A stretch of DNA of 64,000 nucleotides from Cognatundibacterium oligocarboniphilum (GTDB taxonomy: Bacteria; Pseudomonadota; Gammaproteobacteria; Burkholderiales; Burkholderiaceae_D), in contig NZ_JABXYJ010000010.1 in assembly GCF_013377855.1 (NCBI RefSeq), positions 1-64,000 of the forward strand, in the 5' to 3' direction. Shown piece by piece: positions 24,585 through 27,518 of this stretch. The translations under genes and the position numbers were made by a program. Every line of letters starts with the position of its first letter. The first letter of the stretch is position 1. Below the pieces are notes generated by a model. It searched no databases and was not told the origin of the DNA. It saw only the letters and a program-made list of their open reading frames with translations.

Positions 24585-25301
24585 TTACTCGGTCGTACTG
24601 GGGCTCCAGAATGCCTGCTTGACGGCAGGCTGGTCGGCCATGCGGCTCAGGATTGCATCAAGTTCGTCGGAATTCACCGAGGTGGACATCAGCGTGGCTT
24701 CGATTTCAATATCGTCGCTACCGAAAGCGTGCACTTCCAGATCGCGGATCGGGTAATTCGCCAATTCCAGCTCTCTGGACAAATGCGCCAGCACCAGTTT
24801 CTGATGCGGTTTGGCCGCGATGATGTACACGGTGTTGGTGACTTCCACTTCGTCGCCCTCGATCGGCTGGCGGTTGATGCTGTTGACGATCGGTCTTAAC
24901 AAGGTATTGGCCGCCAGCACAAACAAAGTCGCAGCGATGGCTTCCAGGATCAGGTCAGCTCCGGCGGCAGCACCGACTGCGGCTGACCCCCACAGGGTTG
25001 CCGCCGTGTTCAGTCCGCGCACATTGCCGTCTTCACGCATGATGGCACCCGCGCCGAGAAAGCCGATGCCGGACACCACATAGGCGATCACATGCACAGC
25101 ACCGGCATGACCTTCCAGCCGGTTTGCCATATCGACGAATACCGCCGCACCCACTGCCACCAGCACATTGGTTCTCAAGCCAGCGGTCCGCTGCCGGTAT
25201 TGCCGTTCGTAACCGATGACACCGCCCAGCGTGAAGGCGGTAACCAGACTCAGCAAGGTGTCCAGAAATGAACTCAGGTTGATATTTTGTATGGCTTCCA
25301 T
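24585..25301 (-). CDS. MgtC/SapB family membrane protein
   Basis: The 238-residue protein has four to five N-terminal membrane spans with the MgtC signature (GGVIGYERQYRQRTAGLRTNVLVAVGAA, VSGIGFLGAGAIMRE, GLNTAATLW). A C-terminal ACT-like cytosolic domain follows (VYIIAAKPHQKLVLAHLSRELE...). MgtC proteins support growth at low magnesium and in macrophages, in part by inhibiting ATP synthase. It lies 124 bases downstream of the EHGHFH-protein gene on the same strand. Confidence 0.92.
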   Translation of the reverse strand: MEAIQNINLSSFLDTLLSLVTAFTLGGVIGYERQYRQRTAGLRTNVLVAVGAAVFVDMANRLEGHAGAVHVIAYVVSGIGFLGAGAIMREDGNVRGLNTAATLWGSAAVGAAAGADLILEAIAATLFVLAANTLLRPIVNSINRQPIEGDEVEVTNTVYIIAAKPHQKLVLAHLSRELELANYPIRDLEVHAFGSDDIEIEATLMSTSVNSDELDAILSRMADQPAVKQAFWSPSTTE

Positions 25302-25424
25302 CTTGCCCCATCAGAAAAGTCACTCTTCATGTTTTCAGAATGATAAACAATTTTTGCCTGCGCTTCAGAAAAACTGTTGATCCGGCGGCAGCGCAACAAG
25401 TGACTGTTCAGGGGCGATATGGTT

Positions 25425-26114
25425 TTATCCGGCGAGGAATTGCCGGTCCAGATCAATCGGCAGATGCGACAGCACTTCCAGTGTCTGATCCGTGAGTACA
25501 GTACCCGGCTGACAGCTGGCCAGCGCCGCATCGCGCGCAACCAGCAACAGTCTGATCTGCGGCAGGCAGAGCCGGATCAGGTTTGTCAGCATACGTTCAA
25601 TGTCAGGGTGACCGGTGTTGAGCTGTATCCGGGCCAGTAATTGTTCGGTCAGGACGGCGTTCAGCATCAGGTCGCCGGTGACCCAGCTGTTCACCGTAAA
25701 CAGGCTGACCGGCACGCCTTTCGCGTCCAGGCCGATACTCAGCAAATGCCGGGTTTGCACTGTACGCTGCGGTTGCCCGGTAAGCCTGGCGAATGCCTGT
25801 TCGGTACGGGAGTGCAGCCGCCTGCTCCACAGAGGTCGGCGCGCAAACAGGTGAAAGTGCCCATGCTCAACGCTGCCAGGCCGGTCTTCGGGAGAATGCG
25901 AATGATAAAACCACTGATAGGCGCTGCGCAGATCAATCGCATCCTCCTCCGGATAATGCTGCCACTGGCGGGGAGGCTGACCGTCGAGCAAGCGCTGCAA
26001 CAGATGCTCACCCCGCTCAGCCAGCCCGGCGTATGTCTCCAGAATACGCCGGACAGCAGCTGCTCCGGAGGTCTTGGCCAGCGCTGCCGGCCTGCGTCCG
26101 GACGATACGTTCAT
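25425..26114 (-). CDS. Protein with conserved HYPE / YHSH / EHGHFH motifs, function unknown (possibly DUF6969)
   Basis: The 229-residue protein has no signal peptide. A helical N-terminal part (RRILETYAGLAERGEHLLQRLLDG) leads into a histidine-rich core: HYPEED (53-58), YHSH (70-73) and EHGHFHLF (83-90), then a domain with SIGLDAKGVPVSLFTVNSWVTGD. The six histidines could bind a metal. I recall similar proteins as DUF6969, but the label is uncertain. The start is the ATG at 26114, which shares one base with the stop codon of the Cys-rich peptide gene (TGATG), so the two are translationally coupled. That argues for a common function: handling, modifying or exporting the peptide or its metal. 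Confidence 0.78.
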   Translation of the reverse strand: MNVSSGRRPAALAKTSGAAAVRRILETYAGLAERGEHLLQRLLDGQPPRQWQHYPEEDAIDLRSAYQWFYHSHSPEDRPGSVEHGHFHLFARRPLWSRRLHSRTEQAFARLTGQPQRTVQTRHLLSIGLDAKGVPVSLFTVNSWVTGDLMLNAVLTEQLLARIQLNTGHPDIERMLTNLIRLCLPQIRLLLVARDAALASCQPGTVLTDQTLEVLSHLPIDLDRQFLAG

Positions 26115-26392
26115 CAGTGTTTTGGAGCGCACTTAGGTGCACACTTCGGCGCGCATTTCGGGGCACATTTCGGAGCGCACTTCGGAGCACATTTTGCTCC
26201 GCATTTTGCGCCACATTTAGCTTTGGCATGTTTTGCCGGAGCACACCTGGATGCGCATTTCGGAGCGCATTTGCGCATACCGGCTGGCTGGCATTTTACC
26301 TGTGCGTCCGGCATGTCGCCAGCTGCTGCCGGGAGCGCCAGAGTTGCTGCAGTCAGTGCTGCCAGCGAAGCCATTTTCAAAGAAGATTTCAT
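26114..26392 (-). CDS. Exported Cys-rich KCAP/KCG-repeat peptide (novel type)
   Basis: The 92-residue product has a Sec signal peptide (MKSSLKMASLAALTAATLALPAAA) and a mature part of about 68 residues. The mature part holds 12 cysteines (34, 42, 46, 50, 60, 64, 68, 72, 76, 80, 84, 88), nearly all in Lys-Cys-Ala-Pro or Lys-Cys-Gly-Ala steps four residues apart, ending APKH. The six C-terminal KCAP units are encoded by six different synonymous 12-base units, so the repeat is kept at protein level. Lys/Cys repeats of this sort suggest soft-metal (Cu, Zn, Cd) binding or a precursor for cysteine modification, as in HvfA/bufferin peptides, but no DUF692 (MNIO) gene is nearby. Function is inferred. 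Confidence 0.8.
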   Translation of the reverse strand: MKSSLKMASLAALTAATLALPAAAGDMPDAQVKCQPAGMRKCAPKCASRCAPAKHAKAKCGAKCGAKCAPKCAPKCAPKCAPKCAPKCAPKH

Positions 26393-26695
26393 GTATGTCT
26401 CCAGATCAGATTAAAAAAGTAACGGTGCAGAGGTATAACCTGCCCAGCTAAGAGGATGTGAACAAACAAAACGGTTCGCGGTTTCTGAAATTTTTTTTGA
26501 AGTCTCCGGCTTGCCTTACAGCAGCACGCTGCTCACTTACCGCGGCGCGCCAGATGAATGCTGTGTAAAAATATTCCAAGAATGTTTTTAAAAATATTTT
26601 TAAAGAATATTTTTAAATTTCCGCGAACCGTTTTGATGCGAACCCGGCTCTTAGCAAAGGAGGATTGACCTCACACTGACAAAAAGGAGAACACC
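26393..26695. other. Divergent intergenic region between the Cys-rich peptide and DUF2892 genes
   Basis: This 303-base gap must hold promoters for both directions, but most of it is an inverted-repeat element (26447-26655). Very AT-rich tracts with repeated AATATTTTTAAA lie at 26565-26620. The DUF2892 gene has an AAGGAG ribosome binding site at its downstream edge. Confidence 0.6.
26447..26655. mobile_element. MITE-like non-autonomous element with imperfect terminal inverted repeats
   Basis: The left end reads GCTAAGAG (26447-26454), then AAAACGGTTCGCGG (26468-26481). The right end carries exact inverted copies CCGCGAACCGTTTT (26621-26634) and CTCTTAGC (26648-26655) at the same relative spacing (13 bases between the blocks on both sides). 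Inside both arms is an AAATTT. The ~209-base unit has no coding capacity and an AT-rich core. A clear target-site duplication was not seen. Confidence 0.6.
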
Positions 26696-26905
26696 ATGTT
26701 TTACACAAAGAATGTCCCTGGATGGGAACGTCTATTACGCATCGTCATGGGTATCATGGGGCTGGCGTTTGCCGCGATGAACTGGAATACTTCTGCCATG
26801 ATGACGGGCGTTGGTATCATGGCGGCAATGCTGGCTGTCACCGGACTGATCGGTTTTTGCCCGATGTGCGCCATGGTGGGCCGCAAACTCGATAAGGGGA
26901 AATAA
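26696..26905 (+). CDS. DUF2892 family inner membrane protein
   Basis: The 69-residue protein has two membrane spans and the DUF2892 pattern: VPGWERLLRIVMGIMGLAFAAM, then AVTGLIGFCPMCAMVGRKL. The same fold is the membrane part of the rhodanese YgaP. The CPMC motif offers a cysteine pair in the membrane, which may matter for sulfur or redox chemistry. It overlaps no gene but is only 3 bases from the ECF sigma gene downstream. Confidence 0.88.
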   Translation: MFYTKNVPGWERLLRIVMGIMGLAFAAMNWNTSAMMTGVGIMAAMLAVTGLIGFCPMCAMVGRKLDKGK

Positions 26906-26908
26906 ATC

Positions 26909-27460
26909 ATGACCAGCGGGATCGACAGAACTGACCTGATTTTTGCAGCGCAGGCCGGTGATCCTGTTGCGATCAAACGCTTGCTGACAGTCTGCCAGGC
27001 CGATGCGCGGCGCTATGCCCGCCGCCATTGCCAGGCCAGCGATATTGACGATGCGGTACAGGAATCCCTGCTGGTGATTTCGCGCAAAGTATCGGGGCTG
27101 AAAGCGGCAGCGGCCTTTTCCTCCTGGCTGTTTACGGTGATCAAACGCGAATGCCGCAAGCTCGAACGTCTGATGCTGAGACATGATCCGCTGGAAGACG
27201 ACGCAGCAGAACACCAACTCAGCTGCCGCACGGACGATGCCTTGCGGATTGATCTGGCAAATGCGCTGGAATCCTTGCCGGCGCATTATCTGGAAGTGGT
27301 TTTACTGCGCGATTTTGAAGAACTGACGATTGCAGAAATCGCGGAACGGCTCGGTGAACAACCCGGTGCGGTCAAGAGCCGCCTGCACCGCGCCCGCGAA
27401 CTGGTGCGGGAATACCTGCTGGCGCCGGAAACCGTGCCGACCACGCCCTTCACGCACTGA
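26909..27460 (+). CDS. ECF-type RNA polymerase sigma factor
   Basis: The 183-residue protein has region 2 (ARRYARRHCQASDIDDAVQESLLVISRKV...FSSWLFTVIKREC) and region 4 (LESLPAHYLEVVLLRDFEELTIAEIAERLGEQPGAVKSRLHRARELVREYL). No anti-sigma factor gene follows, which is unusual for an ECF factor, though DUF2892 upstream is a small membrane protein. It is coupled to DUF2892 with a 3-base gap and faces away from the Cys-rich peptide unit, so it may direct that unit. Confidence 0.9.
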   Translation: MTSGIDRTDLIFAAQAGDPVAIKRLLTVCQADARRYARRHCQASDIDDAVQESLLVISRKVSGLKAAAAFSSWLFTVIKRECRKLERLMLRHDPLEDDAAEHQLSCRTDDALRIDLANALESLPAHYLEVVLLRDFEELTIAEIAERLGEQPGAVKSRLHRARELVREYLLAPETVPTTPFTH

Positions 27461-27490: not shown

Positions 27491-27518
27491 GGCGGCACTG
27501 CGCCGCCCTGCCTTTTTT
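27491..27518 (+). terminator. Possible terminator after the sigma factor gene
   Basis: GGCGGC (27491-27496) pairs with GCCGCC (27502-27507); a T6 run starts five bases later. The gap before the T run lowers confidence. Confidence 0.45.

Follow-up and report, generated by a model that had tools for sequence, protein, structure and literature searches.

A small, predicted exported cysteine-repeat protein and a histidine-rich partner of the DUF6969 family (PF22308) were encoded as a pair in the 64,000-nucleotide stretch of DNA analysed here (the window), and because the same pairing recurred in alpha-, beta- and gammaproteobacteria, it was not a product of chance. The pair probably represents a stress-induced, bufferin-like two-gene system linked to an ECF sigma factor, in which the cytoplasmic DUF6969 protein, and not an MNIO enzyme, matures the peptide before its export. 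A broader reading is put forward more tentatively. DUF6969 may represent a new class of metalloenzymes that mature peptides independently of MNIO and have a fold for which no structure has been solved. They would act in alpha-, beta- and gammaproteobacteria on Sec-exported cysteine-repeat proteins (KC, NPC, GCC and CAA types, some fused to cytochrome c and some with a single NPC cysteine) and would introduce an undescribed cysteine modification for the handling of copper or sulfane sulfur in the periplasm. We know of no described function for DUF6969. The terms DUF6969 and PF22308 and the peptide repeat strings were not mentioned in the open papers searched, and the pairing was not found in print there.

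The precursor gene (26114..26392, minus strand) encoded 92 residues of the KC type with 12 cysteines. Its N-terminus, MKSSLKMASLAALTAATLALPAAA, was judged signal-like on inspection and under a hydrophobicity rule, and the putative Sec-type signal sequence covered residues 1-24 (26321..26392, minus strand), with the cleavage placed by eye between AAA and GD. The cysteine-repeat region (residues 34-92; 26117..26293, minus strand) was built mostly of KC[AG][AP] steps of four. Its cysteines, at residues 34, 42, 46, 50, 60, 64, 68, 72, 76, 80, 84 and 88, were spaced by exactly four residues in nine of the 11 gaps, the remaining two being 8 and 10, and were preceded by lysine in 11 cases and by arginine in one. 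A putative signal peptide followed by 12 cysteines at mostly every fourth residue, as described in an earlier sequence-only reading of this DNA, was borne out by the open reading frame. No Pfam or NCBIfam family scored above the cut-off for the precursor, which had no DUF2282 match in Pfam and no EGKCG in its sequence. The precursor stop TGA (26116-26114) and the DUF6969 start ATG (26114-26112) had one base in common, which confirmed the sharing of stop and start reported in the same reading; a longer GTG start at 26132 was also open. The second gene (25425..26114, minus strand) encoded 229 residues in which the motifs HYPEED, YHSH and EHGHFH were present as claimed, together with a conserved histidine core seen in the alignment and the model, and no signal sequence was seen in it. 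It was a full-length DUF6969 protein (E 5.9e-55), scoring 186.4 bits where 27 suffice and covering positions 2-201 of the 201-position profile, with no further Pfam family at an E value of 1 or better and a sole NCBIfam match of 12.6 bits, far below the cut-off of 35. Directly downstream of it lay a gene for an MgtC/SapB family protein (24585-25301, minus strand); among the loci compared, only L003 and L129 shared this neighbour.

A scan of genome contigs for relatives of the window DUF6969 protein gave 345 places, the best 80 of which represented 79 loci; these came from alpha-, beta- and gammaproteobacteria, apart from one MAG labelled Acidobacteriaceae. In samples of 398 phylum genomes and 300 order genomes, chosen independently of likeness to the window protein, PF22308 was carried by 20 genomes each, the window's own being counted in both. 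The peptide search covered 116 of 118 DUF6969 loci, omitting L040, which had no upstream sequence, and L139, in which the profile did not find DUF6969. A peptide was defined as a signal-like open reading frame with at least four closely spaced cysteines and a low-complexity tail; this rule was relaxed in view of the misses of an earlier, stricter one, which had given 67 of 97 loci and, in the control, 36 of 648. Such a frame was found directly upstream of DUF6969 or within 3 kb at 98 of the 116 loci, counts that are not independent because of partial redundancy (L109 repeated L067, the L129 peptide was the L003 peptide, and L137 and L138 were alike). It lay directly upstream on the same strand at 60 of 78, 11 of 20 and 12 of 17 loci in the three sets and in the window, and otherwise within 3 kb at 8, 5 and 1 loci, respectively. 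The same rule, applied as a control to 679 other genes in these loci, selected 1 of them, or 9 of 679 if genes near a DUF6969 peptide were counted. Nine more loci were recognised by eye (L048, L051, L072, L078, L122, L130, L131 and the single-cysteine L049 and L053). No peptide was in reach at nine of the 116 loci (L022, L044, L065, L070, L103, L110, L113, L123 and L124), among which L110 offered only 265 bases upstream to search; a match at L113 was dropped as an artefact in a 4.8-kb open reading frame. At record positions 1281716-1280762, the pSymA replicon of Sinorhizobium meliloti 1021 encoded a 124-residue peptide with five cysteines whose gene overlapped a confirmed DUF6969 gene by 8 bases; the record holds one annotated feature in all, so the missing annotation is uninformative.

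The opposite arrangement, peptides widespread without the partner, had been named beforehand as the finding that would speak against a paired system, and it was looked for with peptide profiles. The KC-type profile A2, which like profile A5 was built partly or wholly from DUF6969-adjacent peptides, so that matches beside DUF6969 arise partly by construction and the informative part is what else matched, gave seven matches in the 300 order genomes. The five best lay beside DUF6969 (G000, G585, G501, G431 and G605), and the two others were weak (E 3e-4) and came from genomes in which no DUF6969 was found (G526 and G428, the latter within a frame of 2081 residues). Among 43 genomes of the genus, PF22308 occurred in ten, all of which had a cysteine peptide beside DUF6969 (KC in three, GCCAAKK in six and NPCGP in one). 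The KC profile matched in 3 of 43 and the GCC profile in 6 of 43, every match lying beside DUF6969, and neither profile matched in the 33 genus genomes without DUF6969. G700 also carried a further DUF6969 fragment (L160), a short one, with no peptide beside it. The paired-system idea was not refuted by this search and is strongly supported by the conserved pair and by the position of the KC and GCC peptides, which stood beside DUF6969 in all but the two weak matches.

The 98 peptides varied in length and flanks and comprised KC, NPC, GCC and CAA types. The motif C[AGS][APGS]K was common to the different types, occurring in 93 of the 98 peptides and twice in 87; its 511 occurrences compared with an average of 27.7 after shuffling of the tails, and the rule used for picking peptides favours the letters of the motif, though not the sequence in which they stand. 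In some sphingomonad-type peptides, CAAAG or CC repeats took its place. In 16 aligned precursors, the signal columns M1, L13, T14, A15, A16, A19, L20, P21 and A23 were invariant. Peptide type was clustered on a quick DUF6969 tree with 46 of 110 forks open (21 changes against 60.8 after shuffling, with seven groups including the no-peptide group), a pattern that species kinship alone could explain. At L049 and L053, the signal-bearing frame just upstream of DUF6969 contained a single cysteine and ended in RAANPCAGQ; these frames are possibly the minimal substrate of DUF6969. Cysteine repeats were fused to a c-type cytochrome domain in L062, L067, L057, L077, L107, L111 and L127, and for L067 Pfam showed the domain to be SoxA/TsdA-like. 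This repeat-fused cytochrome also had a stand-alone relative, encoded divergently beside KC-type peptides (e.g. L036 3141-3635).

The gap between 26392 and 26696 contained one ECF-promoter-like CGAACC-N18-CTCTTA site at each side. The site ahead of the precursor and DUF6969 (26449..26478, minus strand) started 86 bases before the ATG. The second, divergent site (26624..26653, plus strand) preceded a gene for a 69-residue YgaP-like small membrane protein with CPMC near its end (26696..26905, plus strand; PF11127, 6e-16) and a gene for an ECF-type sigma-70 factor identified by family profiles (26909..27460, plus strand). A terminator-like stem-loop followed the sigma gene (27491..27507, plus strand) by pattern match only, a weak indication because two such stem-loops were found in the stretch against 3.1 expected by shuffling. 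The motif had been noticed on inspection of the window before it was tested in the other loci. Over 1.12 Mb of loci, a spacer of 18 gave 69 sites when one mismatch was allowed, 41 of them perfect; the other spacers between 14 and 22 gave 0-3 sites apiece, none perfect. The open reading frames downstream of the 69 sites were precursors of the KC type, as judged by eye, in 28 cases, members of an ECF cluster in eight and a c-type cytochrome in seven; of the other sites, five preceded members of a mixed cluster, four thioredoxin, three members of an unnamed cluster, two CcdA and three single frames, and nine had none called, one of these being the plus-strand site of the window, where the YgaP-like gene was missing from that gene list. 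Of the peptide types, only KC was found to have the site. Homologues of the ECF sigma factor occurred in 42 of 117 loci, of the YgaP-like protein in 20, of thioredoxin in 25 and of CcdA in 24. A motif common to the sigma unit and the target unit, the hallmark by which an ECF-sigma regulon was judged, was present in the window, and we infer that CGAACC-N18-CTCTTA is recognised by the sigma factor encoded at 26909-27460.

An alignment of 65 DUF6969 sequences, the most distant at 29% identity, had 18 invariant columns, including H71, H73, H84, H86, H88, D58, E83 and N142. In a wider alignment, in which the window protein was included twice, H71, H73, H86, H88, F139, N142 and V145 were unchanged in 126 of 126 rows, and substitutions were found for D58 in two, D61 in five and P135 in six. 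H84 was replaced by Asn, Ser or Ile in five of the 126 rows (L113, L136, L137, L138 and the Burkholderia glumae protein), which ruled out a strictly invariant EHGHFH and showed that this motif was not strictly required. AlphaFold2 models of the window protein (pLDDT 92.1, pTM 0.89) and of a Marinobacter relative (pLDDT 95.9, pTM 0.92) both had no match among solved structures. By DSSP, H71 and H73 were located at the end of one strand of the model and H86 and H88 in the next, so that each pair would face one side, judging from the strand register. To judge from the conserved residues, the histidine core looks enzyme-like and resembles a metal site. The expectation that the peptide has a different kind of partner held up, as DUF6969 is a distinct family for which no profile relation to DUF692 was seen; comparison with the two MNIO sequences of the window's genome gave a probability of 0.3 of 100.

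Redox genes accompanied DUF6969: Pfam domains near it in the relatives included DsbD_TM, Thioredoxin, SoxA-TsdA_cyt-c, FGE-sulfatase, SelR, Sulf_transp and zf-HC2, and FGE-sulfatase, MsrB (SelR), rhodanese, a sulfur transporter, DUF3179, pyridine nucleotide-disulphide oxidoreductase and zf-HC2 recurred in other clades. Sulf_transp genes lay just upstream of the single-cysteine frames of L049 and L053, and a rhodanese-like frame followed DUF6969 by Pfam in L049 and by eye in L053. In eight loci (L050, L054, L058, L063, L064, L105, L106 and L108), an FGE-sulfatase gene was directly upstream of DUF6969 and a cysteine-repeat protein was encoded on the opposite strand beyond it; in the first five of these, that protein ended in a CxxCH-bearing domain. 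A TRAP-transporter-like gene (DctM, DUF3394) was near DUF6969 in L070, L103, L105, L106 and L108, of which L070 and L103 had no cysteine peptide. Plasmid p28s3p of B. glumae carried, in a row, genes for thioredoxin, CcdA, a sigma factor, zf-HC2, an MFS protein, a KC peptide and DUF6969, the last with ENGHFH instead of EHGHFH. After this row came a gene for MTA phosphorylase and others annotated as arsenosugar biosynthesis, with a TVP38/FAD oxidoreductase near.

Bacterial metallothioneins are short, cysteine-dense and of low complexity, as is the window peptide. Unlike them, the window peptide is predicted to be exported, has a dedicated partner gene and gave no Pfam metallothionein match. Bufferins and captophorins are cysteine precursors modified by MNIO enzymes, and bufferins are Sec-exported, according to excerpts of two papers (PMC12452194, PMC13097082). 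Measured against the excerpted account of bufferins (PMC12452194), the window pair is similar in combining a small, predicted exported cysteine precursor with a dedicated cytoplasmic protein, part of the DUF6969 loci likewise have sigma genes nearby, and both systems show fusions to cytochrome c and links to FGE-sulfatase. In contrast to bufferins, the window unit had no MNIO gene (DUF692, PF05114), no DUF2063 match was found in the five proteins scanned (24585-27460), the partner was DUF6969 and the precursor lacked a DUF2282 match; with the MNIO and DUF2063 genes missing from the unit, the pair is not a member of the bufferin systems. The earlier claim that DUF692 is absent was correct for the neighbourhood but not for the genome, whose only two MNIO matches were on contigs C29 and C32, the window being on C2. 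They belonged to two operons (L001, 1073-3104; L002, 1001-3103), in both of which a DUF2282 precursor and a DUF2063 partner were encoded as well, and the genome had three cysteine-precursor systems with the window pair included. These enzymes might modify the peptide in trans and leave another job to DUF6969, an explanation we regard as very improbable. It is favoured by the two operons, by MNIO genes in 10 of the 19 other DUF6969 genomes and in 39 of 43 genus genomes, and by the similarity of the Lys-Cys motifs to MNIO substrates in the excerpts of PMC13097082; yet no MNIO was found in the other 9 of the 19, both operons have a DUF2282 precursor of their own, and MNIO presence did not track the peptide within the genus.

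Two further explanations keep DUF6969 as the direct partner. The peptide could be a periplasmic carrier of sulfane sulfur whose cysteines are primed by DUF6969 before export, presumably working like the C-terminal cysteine arm of SoxY. As in the SoxY/SoxXA and TsdA systems, a SoxA-TsdA-like cytochrome domain was beside or fused to the cysteine repeats in relatives, and Sulf_transp next to the single-cysteine peptides, the rhodanese of L049 with its counterpart by eye in L053, and the YgaP-like protein of the window point the same way. The cytochrome match was modest (E 4e-9, 6e-10), however, and CCP_MauG also matched the same stretch; the YgaP-like protein was the only sulfur pointer in the window, and 12 cysteines in a row exceed what a carrier needs, in repeats that we take to be unlike SoxY. 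SoxY-like genes also did not stand out among the recurrent neighbours. We consider a carrier role unlikely. Slightly better placed, though still improbable, is a non-catalytic DUF6969 that acts as a chaperone or metallochaperone, binding the reduced cysteine-rich chain or loading it with metal in the cytoplasm before handing it to Sec, so that the peptide would be an unmodified periplasmic buffer of metal or thiol. The same pairing evidence, the cysteine-rich peptide and the lack of a known enzyme family or solved relative for DUF6969 are consistent with it. The unchanged H71, H73, H86, H88 and N142 resemble a metal site and speak against it, although a metallochaperone could have one too, and the single-cysteine partners in L049 and L053 need little protection.

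For the preferred reading, maturation by DUF6969, all of the biochemical steps are ones that we infer. The ECF factor would be set off by metal or thiol-oxidation stress in the envelope and would drive transcription of both its own unit and that of the precursor and DUF6969 from the CGAACC-N18-CTCTTA promoters. Coupled translation would then allow the partner and its substrate to be made together. A metal centre of DUF6969, built from the conserved histidines with Asp or Asn, may modify the cysteine motifs of the small-small-Lys kind (CAPK, CAAK, CGAK and NPC[AG]) or, less likely, DUF6969 may metallate or protect the peptide. The modified peptide would subsequently be exported by Sec and, in the periplasm, would bind a soft metal, most likely Cu(I), or sulfane sulfur. 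In many relatives, a thioredoxin/CcdA pair may keep it reduced, and it may be linked to a c-type cytochrome. The single-cysteine frames of L049 and L053 fit poorly with chelation by multiple cysteines.

An exported cysteine-repeat protein with a near-constant histidine-rich partner in many bacteria looks like an undescribed route to peptides that handle metal or sulfur without the known enzymes. The reading is directly testable, since the pair consists of two small genes and a copy is found on pSymA of S. meliloti 1021, a laboratory strain. If it is true, a substrate, regulator and pathway would be assigned to DUF6969, a family present in 20 of the 398 sampled phylum genomes, and the handling of metal or sulfur by peptides in the envelope would have arisen with a partner for which no relation to MNIO was seen.
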